From: Schleiferia thermophila
GTDB taxonomy: Bacteria; Bacteroidota; Bacteroidia; Flavobacteriales; Schleiferiaceae
Assembly (NCBI RefSeq): GCF_003337435.1
Contig: NZ_QPJS01000001.1
Span: forward strand, 636,513-700,512
Length of the DNA stretch: 64,000 nucleotides
Direction of reading: 5' to 3'
Positions 34,600 to 49,454 of this stretch are shown here, piece after piece (positions within the stretch are counted from its first letter, which is position 1; each line of letters begins with the position of its first letter). Under the pieces are notes generated by a model. That model worked only from the letters and a program-made list of their open reading frames with translations. It was not told the DNA's origin and did not search any database. A program made the translations under genes and the position numbers.

Positions 34600-36364
34600 C
34601 AGTAAGATGGACCGAGTGGACTGGTAATCACCATTGGTTATACTTAATCATTAGCACAAAGACTAACGAATATCCTTTTCAAAATTTGAAAAATTATGTA
34701 CTTTATTTTGATTGTAAATATCCCAAATACACGATATCCAAATGGAAGAAATCTGAATTTTGCGCAAAAGATTTTTCAACTTTATTCCCGTTTTTTCTAT
34801 TTACACTGAATGTTGAAAAATGCAAAGTATGATAAATAAAATCAATACAATTCTTCCGATATGTTTTGTCATTTTTTAAGTAAAAATTTCAAAATAATTC
34901 GATGAAAGTTTCTTATGAAGCATTCTCTTCTTTTATAGCTGATTAGAATATAAAACAGTATTCGAAATTCCTAAAAATTCTGAGGGAGTAGAAACATGGA
35001 GATATGTGTGTAAGTACTTTTGATCAGATACATCCGCTCATGAATGAACACGGGTTTTTTGTGCCATCGCAGGTGCATCTAAGAGGGAATCAAAATCAGT
35101 CTACAAAAGGATTCATTCTCTGACTTCACCTTCATCGAACTTTGGTAAGTTAACCTGAATATTTCAAAAATTTAATTACAGAAACATCATAAATTTTTCC
35201 AAAGATAAATACTTGATAGCTCCTTTTACAATTTAATGGTCTTTCAAATTTTTTTCCTGACCATATCTACTAGTGAAGATGCACAAAAATCGTCTTCATT
35301 TTGACTCATAGAATTTTTTAAAGCCACAAGCAGGAAGAAAAGGACTTAAGAAAAATTTAATTGGCTGAATATTCTCTGATAGGTGAATGCAATGGTAACC
35401 TGCACCTGTTTTTTTCGATTATTTTATGTTCAAATAGGCGCTTATTAGCGCGATTCATTAGGTCTGATGAGAGCGAGAATCGTAAGGGTAGAAATGGTTT
35501 TAATCAAAGTTTTAAGGCAACAATACGGTTGTCCACCCTTTGGGCCAGTCGTGGAAATGGAAAGTATGATTAACAACACAACAGTTCATTTAGGTCAATC
35601 CAAGCCCCAATTCACAATCGAGGACTCTATAGTAAGTGGAAATGACCCGAGGTTTCGAGTGGTTCTATAATTGGATCGCCTTATGTTCGTAAGAAACCTT
35701 GCGCCGATCAGGTAAAAATGATCAGCAAAAGAACTTAACCCTTTTAATATAGGCTACTAAATTCATCCCATTGTCCTTGGAAGATGTAGCAAACAACACC
35801 GCAGGTCGGGAAATATTTCATTTTAGTAACACAACTTATCTCCTAGGAGCAGCAACATTAGGATGAAGTTGTAAATGAAAATTATTGAACTCTGTAAAAC
35901 CCAAACCAGAGTTGCAAAGCCCAGCTAAGACACGATATATCAATGAAGGAATGAGTTTGATAGATCCTCTAAACTTTCTGGCATCAGTGCCAGCTAAGCC
36001 GAATCGCTCTTCGCGGAGAGTCATATTTCCTGATGCGCATCCCAAATTTTTACACTTAATATCTGAATACAAATCCCTGATGCGAAAAGTGTGAGTTGTC
36101 AAATTGGAATCAATAGTTCTGACAATCCACTAGTCTGCCTTTACCCTCTGCTGTATACAATAATTTTAAAGCTAAACTCAGAATGTAAAATTGTTTTGAT
36201 GGAGATCTAACAATAAAACAAGTGCCCCTACCGAAAAAAATTTTACAAGTTGATTGTTTTTTTATACAGGACGACTTGCATTCGGGATTTGGACCTGGGT
36301 GAAATTTTTTCAAAAAAAATGCGCGGTCAGATAGGACCGCGCTTTGTCGATATCATTGTACTTA
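34600..36364. other. 1.8-kb gene-poor, AT-rich interval
   Basis: No gene I can support. Only short open frames occur: 35361-35573 and 35467-35670 (+), 35836-36102 and 36110-36313 (-), and 35885-36094 (+). None has a family motif, a convincing start signal or a credible protein composition. One -7-like box TACTTTTG lies at 35015-35022 and is followed by a 27-codon frame from 35040. The segment 35840-36100 is less AT-rich than its surroundings and could be a decayed gene. The right end holds the terminator of the minus-strand NYN gene. Confidence 0.6.
36311..36342 (-). terminator. Rho-independent terminator of the NYN-CSD operon
   Basis: Perfect 8-bp stem GCGCGGTC/GACCGCGC (36321-36328 and 36335-36342) with a 6-nt loop. 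Read on the minus strand it is followed by A and eight T, so it ends the minus-strand transcript. Confidence 0.88.
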
Positions 36365-40685: not shown

Positions 40686-41060
40686 ATGAAAATAATGCTC
40701 GTGGACGATGATCCCATATTCAATTTCATCGCCCGTAAACTCATAGAATCTACTAAGATAGAGCACGAGCTCGAAGAATATCTGGACGGCTCCGAGGCCC
40801 TGGAAGCGATTAAGCAAAAAAAATCACCTGATGAGCTACCTGATCGCATCCTCCTCGATATCAATATGCCAAAAGTAAATGGATGGCAATTCTTGGAGGC
40901 TCTTCGGCACCTCAATATCTCCAAAGACGTGAGCGTGACCATAGTAACCTCCAGTATTGATGGTGAGGATCGCCGAAAGGCGTTTTCCTTTCCGGAAATT
41001 GATGAATTTCTCATAAAACCCATTTCAAAAAAAGAAATAGCTGAAATTTTAAATAAATAA
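40686..41060 (+). CDS. Single-domain response regulator
   Basis: A 124-residue receiver domain with nothing attached. The acidic pocket is D7-D8-D9, the phospho-acceptor is D58 (LLDINMP), the switch threonine is T88 and the conserved lysine is K111 (IKP). It is 15 nt upstream of the CheB-CheR-PAS gene. CheB proteins usually carry a receiver domain; here the fusion protein lacks one, so this separate receiver could supply it, or it could be a CheY-like output of the large kinase two genes on. Confidence 0.93.
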   Translation: MKIMLVDDDPIFNFIARKLIESTKIEHELEEYLDGSEALEAIKQKKSPDELPDRILLDINMPKVNGWQFLEALRHLNISKDVSVTIVTSSIDGEDRRKAFSFPEIDEFLIKPISKKEIAEILNK

Positions 41061-41075
41061 TTTACTTCCAACAAC

Positions 41076-43982
41076 ATGAAAGTGAGAAATGGTAAGTCCA
41101 AATCAGAATCTGAATATGTAGTAGGCATCGGGGCATCAGCAGGAGGATTGGAAGCACTTCAGGAATTTTTCAAAAATGCGCCGGCCAATACCGGACTTGC
41201 CTATGTAGTTGTACAGCATTTATCACCCGATTACAAAAGCCTAATGAACGAGCTTTTGGCGCGTTTTACCAGCATCCCCATTCAAATCATTGAGGATGGA
41301 ATGCTGATTGAGCCCAACCACATTTATTTAATCCCTCCAAAGAAAAATCTTTCGGTTTTCCACGGCAGACTCCTGCTCGAAGATCAGAGGCAAAACAAAG
41401 GTATCAATTTGCCAATAGATATTTTTTTTAGATCATTGGCCGTAGACTACGGTAAAAAAGCTATAGGCATCATACTATCCGGCACCGGAAGCGATGGTAC
41501 CCTTGGCATTAAAGCGATTAAGGAAGCAGGGGGTATGGTCATCGTTCAGGACGAAAAAACTGCCAAATTCGACGGAATGCCCAAATCCTCAATTGCTACC
41601 GGAGTGGTAGACTACATTTTGCCACCGGCAAAGATGCCAGATGCCATCATCAACTATATAAAGCATCCTTTTATCGAAAACAAAAATGGGATAGAAGAAA
41701 TCCTGAATCAAAATATTGATCAGCTGGTCAAAATCATGCACATACTCCGCGATTACAGTGGAATTGATTTCAGCTACTACAAAGAAAACACCATAATCCG
41801 TCGGCTTGAACGTCGCATGTCCATCAACCGACTCAACTCACTGGATGAATATATTTTACTACTCTCTTCGGACGACCGGGAAAAAGATGTACTCTACCGC
41901 GAATTTTTGATCGGAGTCACCAGATTTTTCAGAGATGAGGGAGCCTTTGAGTTTTTCAAAGACCATGTGATTCCAGAGCTTCTTAGCAAGGAGAGGAAAA
42001 TCTTGCGTGTTTGGTCAGTGGGATGCTCTACGGGAGAGGAGGTTTATTCGGTCGCCTTATTGATCCGAGATTTTATTGACACTTTCAATCTTACAACTGA
42101 AGTTAAAATCTTTGCTACCGACATAGATAAGACCGCCATCGAAATAGCAGGGCAGGGTGTCTATGCCGAAAGTGTTATCAGCGATATAGATCCTATATTG
42201 GTATCCAAATATTTTATCAAAAAAGAAAATACTTACCAGATTTCCGAATCCATTCGGAAGATGGTCATTTTCGCCACCCACAATGTCTTGAAAGATCCGC
42301 CATTTTCAAAAATAAATCTGATTATATGCCGCAACTTATTTATATATCTCAAACCTGACAGTCAATACCGAGTGCTCAATATGTTCTACATGTCACTTGC
42401 ACAAAAGGGCATCCTCTTTTTGGGCACTAGCGAAACCCTAGGAGATCTAAACGAAGCCTTTGAACCTATCAATGTCAAATTCAAAATTTTCAGAAAAAAA
42501 GAAGGATACCAGCCCTTGCTGATCCCAGAGACCAATCTGATGTATCAAAATACCAGAAATTTCACCCTCGAACCGCGTACCGGATTACTCAAAGAAGTAA
42601 AGCGCCAGTCAGAGCTCACCGAGAAAATTATCAGTGCTATATTACCACCTTCTATAGTCATCAACAATAAATTTCAGATCTTGCATGTCATCAACGACAT
42701 CAATCCATTTGTCTCCATACAATCCGGCAGGTTTAATCAAAACCTCACCAACATCATTCATCAGGATCTTCAGATCGTCGTAAACAACATCATACGCCGG
42801 CTCAAAGATGTCGGCGAATCCGTAGCTTTCGAAAACATCAAATTTGAAAATCTATCCATCACTTACGACGTTCAGGGGACCAAAATCGCAGAAAGCGAGG
42901 CAGAAACCATTTATCTCATCAGTTTTTACAAGAGAAAAAGCAAGAAATCCGCTGAAAAAGAAGAAATCCTTACACTGGAAGACCACTACCACGATCGCGT
43001 GAAAGAGCTGGAGTACGAACTGCAATTTGTAAAAGAAAGCCTCCAGGCTACGGTAGAAGAATTGGAGACCTCCAATGAAGAACTACAATCGTCCAATGAA
43101 GAGTTGATAGCGGCTAATGAAGAGCTGCAAAGCACCAACGAAGAGTTGCAAAGCGTGAACGAAGAGCTCTACACCGTAAACAGCGAATTTCAAATAAAAA
43201 TCGATGAACTTACACAACTGAACAACGATATTACCAATCTGCTCAACAACACCGGCATAGCAGCTCTCTACCTGGATCGTAAAATGTGCATCCGAAAAAT
43301 TACCCCATCGTTTAGCGAACTGAGCCATGTGATGGATTTTGACATCGGTCGCCCGATTCAGCACTTCTCAAATTCCATATTATATCCTGATTTTCTGGAA
43401 GATATCAAATCAGTGCAGAAAAATCTCCAAATTATTGAAAAGGAAATAGAAGTTAACCAGCATGTATATCTGCTGCGAATAGCTCCCTATCGCACTGATT
43501 TTCAGGCTGTAGATGGTATACTGGTCACCCTTACCAATCTAAAGAACATTTACGAGCAGAAAAAAGCCCTGAATCAAGCCACCCAAAGATTGCAGATGGC
43601 TCTGGAAATGGGCAACATGGCCTGGTGGGAATGGGATGTAAAAACAGGACAGGTGACAATGCACGAAAAAAAAGCCACCATGATTGGCTACTCCCTTAGT
43701 GAATTTCCTAAAGATGTGTACGAAATCTGTCAACTCATCCACCCAGAGGACTATGAACACACTATGCAGGTAATGCGCGACCACCTGGAAGGTAAAATAC
43801 CCATGTGGGACACCGTTTACCGCATTCGTTGCAAAGATGGGAGCTATAAAATCTATCACGATCGAGGCGGAGTGGTCGCCCGCGATGACCTAGGAAATCC
43901 TCTGAAACTAGTCGGAATCGTGATGGATGTATCAGATCACATGATGATGCATGCAGTACCCGATGAAAAAAGAGGATATTAA
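41076..43982 (+). CDS. CheB-CheR-PAS fusion protein without kinase domain
   Basis: A 968-residue protein. Residues about 14-190 are a CheB methylesterase with triad S21 (GASAGG), H48 (VVQHLSP) and D140 (TGSDGT). Residues about 210-470 are a CheR methyltransferase with the SAM site SVGCSTGEE and [13 protein letters not shown]-like region follows, then a long coiled coil (about 640-715) with repeated EELxSxNEEL heptads, and two PAS domains, the last with WWEWDVKTG and HPEDYE motifs. Such proteins normally continue into HisKA/HATPase domains; this one stops after the last PAS. Its end overlaps the following kinase gene by 32 nt. Confidence 0.92.
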
Positions 43983-46900
43983 AAAAAAAATAGAGGAATT
44001 TCTCAACAATGGGGAAAATACCGAAAGTCAGATCGAAAACCTGGCCGAAAACATACTTATATTTAAAAAAGAACTCGAATACCAAAATGAAGAACTCCTG
44101 CGAATCAACAACCAGCTGGAGCGAAAGAATCAATTTATTGAAACTCTCTTTCACTCCATTCCCGAGCCAATCGTTTTGATTGACCAAAACTTTAGGGTTA
44201 TAAAATACAATAATTGTGCACTTCTTCAATTTTTTTTTTCCGAAAAAACAAGTGACGATTTCAGAAAATGGATAGATCCATCCAGCCAGGATGCCTTTTA
44301 CAAACTCGTTACCGGCAGACTTTCAGAAAGTGTGTTGACCACCGTATATCAGAGAAAATATTTGTCGCGAATCAATAATATAGAACTTGACGAATCTTCT
44401 GCATTTATCCTCTACCTGTCTGATATTACAGAAATCGAAAAAACAAAACAAATACTGGCAATCGAAAATCAAATCAATCAAATCATCATTGAATACCTAA
44501 ACGTAGAGGTAAATGAGAATACGGATCTGCAACAAGTGTTCACCAGAGTATTGAGCAGCATTTGTAAAGTCATCAGCGCAGAAGCCATTGTCTGGAAACA
44601 GGATGATATCCTTTTCAGCAGCGCTGAAAACACACAGTATCACAGTGAATTATTAGAAAAATGTGTAAATTTTTTTTTATCAAATAATGAATCATCTTTA
44701 CATACCTTAAGTGTCCAAAAGAAATTGATGGATGAGGCAAAAAAGAGCAATGTATTCATCTATCACTCTACGGAAGAAGATTTAAAAAAATACAAAGGTT
44801 CTCTCCTATTACTTTCTAAAGAACAAATAGACATTCAAATCTTTCAACTTATATCACTAGAAGTATCTAATCTTTTTCATCGTTTTAAGGGTGAAATTGA
44901 AATTAGAAACAGCGAAAGAAAATTCAGAAAACTGGCAGAAAATACAGCAGATGGCCTGGCAATCATTAAAAATAATTCACTAGTTTATGCCAACGACAAT
45001 TATTTTAAAATAACCGGAGTACCTCGATACGACAAACGGTATCAAAATCTTAGTGAAATATTCAATTATATTCACCCTGAGGACAGAGAGTCAGTTCAAA
45101 GTACATTCTTCAGAAACACACAAAACAAAATCAATTCTTTTGAGTATGAATTCAGAATACTAAATGCATCTGGTGAATACATCTGGCAATTTGATAAAGT
45201 AACCGTAGATTATCATCCTGATGGTAGCTATACTTTATACATAATTTCGGTAAACATCGATCAAAAGAAAAAGCAGCTCCAATGGCTGGCTATGCTGGAA
45301 AAAGCTATTCAGCAGAGTCCAGCCTCTATAGTAATGACAGATCCAGAAGGAAATATTCAATATGTAAACCAAGCGTTTACAGAAATTACAGGCTATACAC
45401 ATGAGGATATTCTCGGAAAAAATCCGCGAATTCTAAAATCCGGATTGGTATCTGAGGAGACCTATAAAGAATTGTGGAATACGATCATATCCGGTAAAAC
45501 CTGGAGAGGGGAATTTATAAACCGAAGAAAAAACGGTACTTTGTATTACGAAAGTGCTCACATATCTCCGGTGATAATAGAAGAAAAAATCGCCGGATTT
45601 ATCGCGATAAAAAATGATATCACGGAACTTAAGGAAATAAACAAAAAATTAGAACTGCTTTCACTGGTAGCTTCTCATACTCAAAATATGGTCATCATAA
45701 CCGATCACAACGGATATACCATTTGGGTCAATCGAAGCTTCGAAAAATTTACGGGGTATACCCTGGATGAGATGATTGGAAAAAAGCCTGGAGATGTGCT
45801 GCAAGGAAAAGAAACAAGTAAAAAACATATCAATGAAATGTCTAATAAACTTCAAGAATTAAAGCCATTTACCCAGGAGATACTCAATTACACTAAAAGT
45901 GGAAAACCTTATTGGGTAGAGCTAAACATTACTCCGATTTTTGACAGTTCAGGGCGACATACGATGTATATATCCGTAGAAAATGATATCACCCATAAAA
46001 TAGAACAGGAACAGAAACTACGCGAAAGTGAACGAAAAAACAGAGCAATTCTCAATGCAATTCCTGATTTGATTTTTATCATTGACAGAGAGCTTCGATA
46101 TATTGATTATCATGCCTTTGAGCCTGGTCAATTGCTGATGCCTCCTTCGAGATTTCTGGGTAGAACTGTACCAGATGTAATGCCAGAAAATTCCGGAAAA
46201 ATCATAGTAGATAACATTAAACAAACATTCCGTACTGCAGAGCTGAGTGAATTTATTTTTGAAATAGATGTTGGAAATCGAAGACGGTTTTACGAAGCCC
46301 GATGTGTAATGAAAGATTTCAACTCGGTATTGCTACTGATTCGAGATATAACGAAAAGCAAGGAAATTGAATTTCAGTTGAAAAACGAACAGCATTTGCT
46401 GAAAACCGTAATCGACAATCTTCCCAATACAATTTATCTCAAAGACAAAGAGTTAAAAAAAATACTTGTTAACAAAGCAGAGATCCTATATCTTGGAAAA
46501 ACCTCGGAAGAAGAAGTTATCGGTCGTACTGATTTCGAATTTTACGATCGTAAAGTTGCTTTAGGAATTTACAAAGAAGATATCGAAGTATTAAAAAAAG
46601 GGAAACCTTTAATTAATAAGATCATCGAATACACCAATCACTTAGGTGACAGGAAATTTATGATGATATCCAAATTTCCTTACAGGGATGTTAGTGAAAA
46701 CATTATTGGAATTTTAGGGATTGGAATCGATATTACCGAACTTAAGAAAAAGGAAGAAGAACTTCAAAATACAATTGCCATTATCACAGATCAAAACGAG
46801 CGCCTGAGGAGTTTTACCTATATAGTAAGTCACAACATCAGAGCCTATGCCGCTAATATCGATGGTCTGGTGGAGCTTATCAATAGTGAGCTCACGCCCG

Positions 46901-47472
46901 CCAGCGAGAAAAATCAGATGCTGAATCTGTTACAGGTGGCTTCAGCCAATCTGATGGAAACCATCAAAACACTCAACGAATCACTTGCTGCAGAAAAAAA
47001 AGGAAAAGAAAATATACAAAAAGTCAATATTTGTGAAGTGCTTGAAAAAGTACTTAAAGTTGTTAAAAAAGATATAGAATCCAACGATATTTTAATCATA
47101 AATGAAATATCCAAAGAACAAAACGTGGACTTTAATCCGGCTTTTTTCGAAAGCGTAATACTAAACCTTACGACCAATGCTATACGGTATCGTAGAAAAG
47201 ATGTAAAAAGCTATATTAAATATGAGTATAAAGAAGAAAATGGCATAAAACAATTAGAAATTTCTGATAATGGATTGGGTATAGACCTTGATAAATACGG
47301 ACATAAAATGTTTCGCATGTTTGAAACATTTCACATGCATCCGGAATCTAAGGGATTGGGATTATTTCTCACAAAGGCTCATATTGAAGCGATGGGGGGT
47401 AAAATTGAGGTAGAAAGCAGGGTAAATGAAGGCACTACCTTCAGAATTATTTTCAATCCTTTAAAACAGTAG
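43951..47472 (+). CDS. Giant soluble multi-PAS hybrid sensor kinase
   Basis: A 1173-residue histidine kinase without transmembrane helices. After an N-terminal coiled coil I see about six PAS domains (from near residues 50, 330, 450, 570, 690 and 810, several with PAC motifs such as GYTHEDILGKNPRIL) and a GAF-like region near 180-300. The dimerisation helix has H961 in VSHNIRAYAANI, followed by N box LNLTTNAIRYR, DNGLGI and GLGLFLTKAH. An ATG at 43963 is an alternative start, 12 nt downstream. The gene lies directly behind the CheB-CheR-PAS gene and probably provides its missing kinase half. Its 3' end overlaps the convergent MarC gene by 12 nt. Confidence 0.9.
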   Translation: MQYPMKKEDIKKKIEEFLNNGENTESQIENLAENILIFKKELEYQNEELLRINNQLERKNQFIETLFHSIPEPIVLIDQNFRVIKYNNCALLQFFFSEKTSDDFRKWIDPSSQDAFYKLVTGRLSESVLTTVYQRKYLSRINNIELDESSAFILYLSDITEIEKTKQILAIENQINQIIIEYLNVEVNENTDLQQVFTRVLSSICKVISAEAIVWKQDDILFSSAENTQYHSELLEKCVNFFLSNNESSLHTLSVQKKLMDEAKKSNVFIYHSTEEDLKKYKGSLLLLSKEQIDIQIFQLISLEVSNLFHRFKGEIEIRNSERKFRKLAENTADGLAIIKNNSLVYANDNYFKITGVPRYDKRYQNLSEIFNYIHPEDRESVQSTFFRNTQNKINSFEYEFRILNASGEYIWQFDKVTVDYHPDGSYTLYIISVNIDQKKKQLQWLAMLEKAIQQSPASIVMTDPEGNIQYVNQAFTEITGYTHEDILGKNPRILKSGLVSEETYKELWNTIISGKTWRGEFINRRKNGTLYYESAHISPVIIEEKIAGFIAIKNDITELKEINKKLELLSLVASHTQNMVIITDHNGYTIWVNRSFEKFTGYTLDEMIGKKPGDVLQGKETSKKHINEMSNKLQELKPFTQEILNYTKSGKPYWVELNITPIFDSSGRHTMYISVENDITHKIEQEQKLRESERKNRAILNAIPDLIFIIDRELRYIDYHAFEPGQLLMPPSRFLGRTVPDVMPENSGKIIVDNIKQTFRTAELSEFIFEIDVGNRRRFYEARCVMKDFNSVLLLIRDITKSKEIEFQLKNEQHLLKTVIDNLPNTIYLKDKELKKILVNKAEILYLGKTSEEEVIGRTDFEFYDRKVALGIYKEDIEVLKKGKPLINKIIEYTNHLGDRKFMMISKFPYRDVSENIIGILGIGIDITELKKKEEELQNTIAIITDQNERLRSFTYIVSHNIRAYAANIDGLVELINSELTPASEKNQMLNLLQVASANLMETIKTLNESLAAEKKGKENIQKVNICEVLEKVLKVVKKDIESNDILIINEISKEQNVDFNPAFFESVILNLTTNAIRYRRKDVKSYIKYEYKEENGIKQLEISDNGLGIDLDKYGHKMFRMFETFHMHPESKGLGLFLTKAHIEAMGGKIEVESRVNEGTTFRIIFNPLKQ

Positions 47473-48092: not shown

Positions 48093-49454
48093 ATGATCGT
48101 CAGCGTTAACAGTGAATCCTCTGTCGAAGTGCCTGATTATTTGCACTGCAGCAAAGAGTTTCCCGTGTTGATTACAGATTTGAAAGGGATCATCCGGTAT
48201 ATCAATCGAGGGTATTCAATTCTATACGGATATTCACCAGAGGAGGTACTTGGACACTCAGCCGAGGAACAGGTAATGAATTTCGATTTTGATAAAATGC
48301 ATTATACTGTAAATCAATGTCTTAATCAGATTGGAATACCCCAAAAAGTATTGCTGAGAAAGCCTTGTAAATACGGCAAAGGCGTACACTTCACAGAGTG
48401 GGAGTTTACCGCCATACCTGACACTACCTGTAAGGTAGCGGCCATTTTTTGCCTGGGTAAGATCGTAACGCCGTTGTACACCGGTGAATCCGACCAGATT
48501 AAAGAAGAATTCCTGACCGTCATTGACCAATTATCATCCGAAGCCTGGGCCTTTTACGATTGTCAACTGAAACTAAGGCTGGCCAATCGGAAGGCGGTTC
48601 AAATCGTAAAAGAGGAGTTCGGACGAGAGCCTCTTCCTGGAGATGACGCGATGCTGTACACAGGAGGAGATCATGCAGGACTGATGCGCGATGCCTACAG
48701 CAGGGCTTTAAAAGGGGAAACCATTCAGTATGAGCTAACTTCACCAAATGGGAGATCGTACATTCTTACCATCAAACCCGTTTATTCAAAAAAAAGTGCA
48801 TTGCTGGGGGTAGTCCATTACATGGTAGACATAACCCAGGTAGTTCAAAACAAAAAACAACTTAATACCTTGTCGACACGTTACAAAACCCTGCTGGATC
48901 AGCTAAGTGGCTTGGTGCTCATCATCGAACAGGATGGACAAATCAGCTTTGTATCCGAAAATGTGCAATCTTTGTCAGGGTTTAGTAAAGAGCAGGTGAT
49001 TGGTAAAAATTTCTTGCAATTTGTACACCAGGATGATTGGGAATTAAGTCAAACATTTTTCAAAGAAGTTTTTTCGTCCCAAAAGCCCAACACTTTGGCT
49101 ATTCGCACCCTAAATTCAGACCAAACCTACAATTGGACATTGGTAAAGGTAGGTATTTTTGAAGAGGATGGCCAAAGCCGTCTGCTCGTATTATTGATCA
49201 ATATAGAGGAAACCAAACAAAAGGAAGCATTAATCGAGGATTTTCACGAGACCTTCAGGCGAATTGCTTTTTTACAATCCCATGTGGTCAGGGCTCCGTT
49301 GGCCAGGCTCCTTGGTCTGACCCAAGCACTTGAAAACTGCATGATAGACAATCGCGATGAGCTGGAGAAATTTATCCAATACATAAAGGAGGCAGCCTTT
49401 GAGTTGGACGGTGTGATTCATCAAATCGTAAAGATGACCACACATAAAGATTAA
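48093..49454 (+). CDS. Multi-PAS protein ending in a kinase dimerisation helix, no ATPase
   Basis: A 453-residue soluble protein with three PAS domains (about residues 20-125, 145-250 and 260-375; motifs ILYGYSPEEVLG and SLSGFSKEQVIGKNF). The last 75 residues form a helical hairpin with an H-box, FLQSHVVRAPLARLLGL (H397), like the dimerisation and phosphotransfer domain of a histidine kinase. The protein ends after the second helix, with no N, G1 or G2 box of an ATPase. It could be phosphorylated by another kinase as a phosphorelay protein, or act as a dominant partner of the giant kinase upstream. This function is inferred. Confidence 0.85.
   Translation: MIVSVNSESSVEVPDYLHCSKEFPVLITDLKGIIRYINRGYSILYGYSPEEVLGHSAEEQVMNFDFDKMHYTVNQCLNQIGIPQKVLLRKPCKYGKGVHFTEWEFTAIPDTTCKVAAIFCLGKIVTPLYTGESDQIKEEFLTVIDQLSSEAWAFYDCQLKLRLANRKAVQIVKEEFGREPLPGDDAMLYTGGDHAGLMRDAYSRALKGETIQYELTSPNGRSYILTIKPVYSKKSALLGVVHYMVDITQVVQNKKQLNTLSTRYKTLLDQLSGLVLIIEQDGQISFVSENVQSLSGFSKEQVIGKNFLQFVHQDDWELSQTFFKEVFSSQKPNTLAIRTLNSDQTYNWTLVKVGIFEEDGQSRLLVLLINIEETKQKEALIEDFHETFRRIAFLQSHVVRAPLARLLGLTQALENCMIDNRDELEKFIQYIKEAAFELDGVIHQIVKMTTHKD

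Follow-up and report, generated by a model that had tools for sequence, protein, structure and literature searches.

A stretch of 64,000 nucleotides of the Schleiferia thermophila genome (contig NZ_QPJS01000001.1, positions 636,513 to 700,512, hereafter the window) contains a block of three genes that encode, in order, a single-domain receiver (REC), a protein in which a CheB methylesterase domain and a CheR methyltransferase domain are fused to PAS domains, and a multi-PAS histidine kinase. In the fusion protein, residues 661-702, between CheR and the PAS_10 domain, consist of six heptads, each of which has a Glu-Glu pair at b and c with Ser, Thr or Ala on its flanks, and from this sequence pattern we consider it moderately probable that the coil is a built-in methyl-acceptor and the fusion a self-contained, receptor-free, methylation-adaptive sensor. 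This reading is based on the anatomy of the protein, the conservation of the segment, its match to the rule that describes methylation sites in methyl-accepting chemotaxis proteins (MCPs), its co-occurrence with fused CheR, and the existence of fusion-bearing genomes in which no MCP was detected.

In an alignment of 25 fusions, the members that passed a simple pattern filter, residues 661-702 rank first of the 926 possible 42-residue segments for conservation. All 12 Glu residues (661/662, 668/669, 675/676, 682/683, 689/690 and 696/697) are invariant in 25/25 sequences, as are the Asn residues at 667, 674, 681, 695 and 702. The mean entropy by heptad position is 0.43 at a, 0.00 at b, 0.00 at c, 0.42 at d, 0.98 at e, 0.59 at f and 1.00 at g. 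By comparison, mean entropy is 2.53 bits in another predicted helix of the same protein (residues 823-845), and 1.84 bits (637-659) and 1.20 bits (703-726) where the long predicted helix extends beyond the coil. Relative to the orthologue in Thermaurantimonas aggregans, residues 655-705 have a nonsynonymous difference (pN) of 0.016 and a synonymous difference (pS) of 0.74. In the register that we infer, Asn occupies a, Leu occupies d, and the Glu pairs are exposed at b and c; it would then be the exposed positions that are invariant, unlike what is expected of a mere dimerising spacer, in which such positions would be free to vary. The segment in the window contains 13 Glu and zero Lys, Arg and Asp. 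Across 62 fused-CheR proteins (60 fusions and two CheR-coil-PAS proteins) the run carries an average net charge of -1.90 per heptad and is devoid of Lys and Arg in 25/62; its length varies from 4 to 10 heptads, with six in 29/62.

Methylation sites in MCPs are Glu residues spaced seven apart, as a rule in Glu/Gln pairs, with some sites outside pairs (PMC2535941). The coil conforms to this rule of paired Glu/Gln at seven-residue spacing, as a sequence pattern only. In the 403 heptads of the 62 fused-CheR proteins, A/S/T/G/V occupy f in 97% and g in 83%, as around MCP sites; Glu at b and c in these heptads was the criterion by which the runs were selected and so does not count as independent evidence. 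Two spirochaete MCPs (L077 and L079), which come from fusion-bearing genomes, share the code, reading EEVSASMEEMSSS and SGEEVSASMEEMSSSV, and the helix of the MCP of S. thermophila itself reads AETATSIAETTTTIEEI, which by eye is very like the methylated peptide of FrzCD. The likeness to MCPs such as FrzCD and Tar thus lies in the paired Glu at seven-residue spacing; in contrast to them, the fusion has no MCPsignal hairpin domain (no PF00015 match), the window encodes neither CheW nor CheA, and coils of the fusion type reach 10 consecutive heptads.

Several steps can be envisioned by which such a protein might operate. The 90-residue helix would form a parallel dimeric coil, with Asn and Leu in the core at a and d and the Glu-Glu pairs exposed at b and c, and the tethered CheR would methylate the second Glu of the pairs, either in cis or across the dimer, at the predicted sites E662, E669, E676, E683, E690 and E697. 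The tethered CheB would remove methyl groups from the same coil. The level of methylation would then alter both the charge of the coil, which has little or no balancing positive charge, and its packing, and a shift in packing may change how the PAS domains are coupled to the neighbouring kinase. The output of that kinase may in turn be the 124-residue receiver, which is the probable phospho-acceptor of the block.

Both enzymatic domains appear to be intact. As in the CheB-CheR-PAS family, the CheB domain carries triad residues and the CheR domain conserved active-site residues: S21, H48 and D140 of CheB and R286, E322, D349 and Y424 of CheR are invariant in 27/27 relatives, and the two domains were also aligned to solved CheB and CheR. 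We take the former to be the Ser-His-Asp triad of CheB and the latter to be active-site residues of CheR. Pfam finds no REC domain in the chain, whose CheB domain begins at residue 16; the N-terminal receiver of a canonical CheB is therefore missing, and a separate REC gene lies upstream of the fusion. The AlphaFold2 model, built from 27 sequences, has a mean predicted local distance difference test score (pLDDT) of 78.1 and a predicted template modelling score (pTM) of 0.40. Segments 483-507 and 621-640, which flank the variable region at 504-619, were modelled with low confidence and are probably flexible. When the model was used in a structure search, CheR, CheB and PAS-containing chains were among the 50 matches listed. 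The features of the block are collected in Table 1.

Table 1. Genes of the block and parts of the fusion protein, with positions in the window.
Feature	Position	Strand	Length or evidence
Single-domain receiver (REC)	40686..41060	+	124 aa; Pfam Response_reg E 1.4e-19
CheB-CheR-(PAS-like)-coil-PAS_10-PAS_3 fusion	41076..43982	+	968 aa; open reading frames and Pfam
CheB methylesterase domain, residues 16-191	41121..41648	+	CheB_methylest E 4.9e-61
CheR_N and CheR methyltransferase, residues 219-468	41730..42479	+	CheR E 9.7e-55, CheR_N E 1.1e-13
Variable alpha/beta region with PAS-like order of elements, residues 504-619	42585..42932	+	AlphaFold2 model; PAS reading by eye
One continuous predicted helix, residues 637-726	42984..43253	+	AlphaFold2
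Proposed methyl-accepting segment, residues 661-702, six heptads	43056..43181	+	conservation; MCP site rule
PAS_10, residues 720-822	43233..43541	+	Pfam E 2e-19
PAS_3, residues 862-949	43659..43922	+	Pfam E 8e-18
Multi-PAS histidine kinase	43963..47472	+	1169 aa, or 1173 aa with the earlier ATG at 43951

A first-pass annotation of this DNA, made from its letters and open reading frames (ORFs), had described a receiver, a CheB-CheR-PAS protein with no kinase domain and a separate kinase, the two large genes overlapping; this arrangement is borne out by the ORFs and by Pfam. The two genes overlap in different reading frames. For the kinase, the start at ATG 43963 is more likely than that at 43951. 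Several PAS models match it, so that the count of about six PAS domains in the annotation is plausible, HATPase_c does so at about 47140-47454 (E 8.1e-16), and its H-box reads SHNIRAYAANI by eye; the GAF domain that had been ascribed to it was not recovered by Pfam at E≤0.1. The fusion chain itself contains neither HisKA nor HATPase at the same threshold, and hence no C-terminal histidine kinase.

The nearest relative found is T. aggregans, another member of the Schleiferiaceae (Bacteroidota), whose best segment (in locus L010) is 84% identical. Its genes have the same order of receiver, fusion and kinase, so that the block withstands the check on its conservation that had been suggested, and by eye the locus also carries a homologue of the endonuclease/phosphatase-family gene that lies upstream in the window. 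The receiver orthologue (L010 9587-9970) is identical at 102/124 residues and the fusion at 816/954. The kinase is identical at 651/1150 aligned residues and therefore changes much faster than both. A frame error that would join the two large genes, which had been named as a possible refutation, can be discarded: the frames differ and the genes are also separate in T. aggregans, behind the same receiver, which makes such an error unlikely.

Near the block, and separated from it by a gene of the MarC family on the opposite strand, lies another gene for a protein rich in PAS domains (48093-49454); its tail resembles HisKA at a score that falls short of the cut-off (E 0.0062), and Pfam finds no HATPase in it at E≤0.1. 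Elsewhere in the window, about 1.8 kb at 34600-36364 contain no ORF over 88 residues and no Rfam match; Rfam had no match at gathering scores in the window as a whole.

The separation of fusion and kinase had been presented as the division of a normally continuous protein, which turns out to be misleading. Among 22 further fusions, which were picked by hand rather than at random (they include L028, and one is cut at its start), Pfam finds no kinase domain in the same chain in 19; the three that have one (L019, L031 and L043) are longer. An in-chain kinase is thus not a defining feature of the CheB-CheR-PAS family, being missing in 19/22 of those scanned. Where a kinase-less fusion is followed by a complete gene, that gene encodes a HATPase kinase in 7/7 loci (L012, L013, L015, L016, L018, L021 and L081); L011 and L014, with only partial downstream frames, stand outside this count. 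In L081, on an Azospirillum plasmid, the fusion and kinase genes overlap by 4 bases. The split into a kinase-less fusion and an adjacent kinase is ordinary and common. Compared with known CheB-CheR fusions, which carry PAS domains and sometimes a kinase, the protein in the window has the same domain order; the kinase, as often among its relatives, is encoded apart, by an overlapping gene.

Fusions of this kind are widely distributed. Matches to the CheB-CheR fusion, not all full-length, occur in 146/296 Bacteroidota genomes at E≤1e-30, and at E≤1e-40 there are matches in 260 plasmid records, of which 211 cover at least 80%. CheB-CheR-PAS fusions were found in Bacteroidota, spirochaetes, alpha- and betaproteobacteria, a cyanobacterium and Deinococcus.

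The occurrence of the coil was surveyed in ORFs of at least 150 residues from the window and the fetched loci, leaving out overlapping shorter frames and the own-genome duplicates L001-L008 and L025. A run was counted when at least four heptads followed one another, EE first and then EE, QE or EQ, and CheR proteins were classed by profile. Runs are present in 60/60 long ORFs with both CheB and CheR and in 2/2 long ORFs with CheR only (Azospirillum L091 and Nonomuraea L094); they are present in 0/7 stand-alone CheR and 0/10 CheB-only ORFs. Among other ORFs, 7/71 long and 1/330 short ones have a run, the loci being L057, L071, L089, L058, L060, L061, L062 and L065. The loci taken from the search of Bacteroidota genomes with the entire fusion were those that matched it best. 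From plasmids, the loci are 16 of 60 listed matches, fetched from a spread ranking and picked for breadth and low coverage, and the coil lies in the CheR ORF in 15/16 of them and in an adjacent gene in 1/16. A search with the coil itself across 292 genomes (E≤1e-5) gave matches in 99, of which 92 also have a fusion match. Runs of 3 to 5 were found in non-fusion proteins of G012, G080, G095 and G138. Four other matches were set aside as chance, those in G028 (L069) and G090 (L067) having a single EE[LM] only and those in G096 (L073) and G160:C46 (L072) no EE heptad. G171, the sole one of 91 fusion genomes with no coil match at E≤1e-5, shows eight EE heptads on direct reading.

The coil is also found in proteins other than the fusion. 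In Bacillus cereus, RsbM represses the pathway of the sensor kinase RsbK by methylating its signalling helix (PMC4574943), and RsbM has been likened to CheR (PMC12848376). Three Bacteroidota loci (L070 7526-12509, L057 1024-5889 and L071 2363-7000) have overlapping genes for CheR, CheB and a large GAF hybrid kinase, and these kinases carry 3-4 EE heptads (three in L070) between GAF and HisKA, which is where the methylated signalling helix of RsbK lies. In L057 and L070 the kinase has the order CHASE3-GAF-kinase-REC3. By analogy, these three loci are RsbK/RsbM-like systems with an added esterase. On a plasmid of Paracoccus liaowanqingii (L089 4962-8854), genes for CheB-CheR, a coil-PAS-HWE kinase and a response regulator are adjacent; the fusion is cut before the coil, so that the short CheB-CheR ORF has no run and the coil is encoded instead early in the following gene, that of the kinase. 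Either a natural split or a recent frameshift might explain this arrangement. In L055, a 576-residue ORF at 1165-2892, directly downstream of the fusion, has an EE-heptad run of 3 and a PAS_10 domain and no match to CheB, CheR or HATPase; it is a possible trans substrate.

It has to be considered that the targets of CheB and CheR lie in trans, on the neighbouring kinase or some other partner, and not in their own coil. This would fit the EE heptads on the separate neighbouring kinases of L089, L057, L070 and L071 and the second coil-PAS_10 ORF downstream of the L055 fusion. We nevertheless regard it as unlikely for the block in the window, where neither the kinase nor the protein encoded at 48093-49454 has two consecutive EE heptads and the fusion has six.

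Several observations weigh against the coil as a built-in methyl-acceptor. In the broader alignment of 27 sequences, which includes more distant members, 8/12 coil Glu are invariant and four are not: E661 (26/27), E662 (24/27), E669 (26/27) and E675 (26/27). At least six PAS kinases with no fused CheR bear a similar coil in runs of 4-5 (L058, L060, L061, L062, L065 and L098, the first five of which were fetched for a matching coil and the last later), and L101 also has a run of 3. The EE code is therefore not exclusive to fused CheR, the idea that the coil is confined to CheR-bearing proteins had to be given up, and the code alone is no proof of methylation. The coils of the RsbK-like kinases are flanked mostly by Gln, not by Ser/Thr. 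Because many loci were retrieved with the entire fusion as query, and so with the coil as well, the frequency of the coil may be inflated. The model is of a monomer with the pTM already given, and it is silent on the reach of the active sites. The REC domain that CheB lacks is the usual regulator of the esterase in canonical CheB. Lastly, the genomes that have the fusion and no MCP match, 68 in number, are not independent, since 41 belong to one family and 27 are others. As to the six CheR-less kinases, all of their genomes encode CheR at another place. In a search for such a coil (E≤1e-6, 289 genomes), 15/15 matching genomes likewise encode CheR, and in nine of them the protein that matched is the fusion itself; CheR presence was dropped as proof of methylation in trans because the base rate is 185/292 genomes.

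These points bear in part on a further alternative, in which CheB and CheR are catalytically idle and serve a structural or ligand-sensing role, the coil being kept for mechanical signalling only. The missing REC domain and the similar coils in PAS kinases with no fused CheR would both accord with it. We think it distinctly improbable, because all 27 relatives keep the catalytic residues of both domains unchanged.

The 64-kb window has no MCP, CheW or CheA, as the first-pass annotation had noted; all matches to MCP and CheW domains lie outside it, in one operon. The further supposition that the genome lacks classic chemoreceptors did not hold: the 2.6-Mb assembly, which is 99.83% complete, has a single MCP match, in an operon at C1 about 619.5-628.0 kb (L009 2507-11015), upstream of the window and ~50 kb from the fusion, with the order MCP-CheW-CheR-CheW-CheA(REC)-CheB(REC)-REC/kinase. 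A CheR and a CheB are thus already encoded in that operon, and the fusion constitutes a further pair distinct from them. In the phylum, 68/91 Bacteroidota genomes with the fusion (E≤1e-90) have no MCP match (E≤0.001); the fusion search covered 296 genomes and the MCP search 289, and genomes with handles above G288, probably outside the MCP search, were left out. The suggestion that the CheB/CheR half modifies something other than a receptor gains support from these MCP-free genomes and from the MCP-like code within the protein; the implied absence of chemoreceptors is wrong for this genome. That the coil is a mere dimerising spacer and that CheB and CheR modify the genome's chemoreceptor in trans is very unlikely: the one MCP does stand in a complete operon ~50 kb off and by eye has heptad-spaced Glu in its helix, but that operon carries its own CheR and CheB, the majority of fusion genomes just counted have no MCP match, and invariant exposed b and c positions are not expected of a spacer.

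Parts of this picture are already known. Fusions of cheB and cheR have been noted in Geobacter (a table footnote in PMC8396549), and RsbK is a known case of a kinase methylated on a helix. In the RsbK/RsbM system, RsbM stands by itself as an orphan methyltransferase that lacks a cognate esterase, and both enzymes are here fused to the coil; by analogy, the likeness lies in a CheR-type methyltransferase that acts on the helix of a signalling protein, an activity that is only proposed for the fusion. RsbK is described as CHASE3-HAMP-GAF-S-helix-kinase-REC, and the kinase in the window has only PAS and HATPase in Pfam; it is the kinases of L057 and L070 that have the RsbK type of architecture, except that HAMP is not among their listed domains. 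The coil also resembles the signalling helix (S-helix) of Anantharaman et al. (2006) in lying between two signalling domains; a term search found CheR and CheB nowhere in the text of that paper (PMC1592074). In the portions of the open-access literature that were covered, which leave aside subscription papers and preprints, we found no paper that proposes the CheB-CheR-PAS coil as a methyl-acceptor and none that states what CheB-CheR-PAS fusions methylate. What is new here is the proposal that the coil is the methyl-acceptor of CheB-CheR-PAS proteins.

Overall, the chances appear evenly balanced that CheB-CheR-coil-PAS proteins constitute a widespread class of receptor-free sensors, with writer, eraser and methyl-acceptor in one polypeptide, which would give two-component kinases the kind of reversible methylation memory that has so far been tied to chemoreceptor arrays, even in bacteria that have no chemoreceptor. 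If the fusion's own coil is the substrate, the prediction narrows to six named residues, and methylation-based adaptation would extend from chemotaxis to ordinary two-component signalling.

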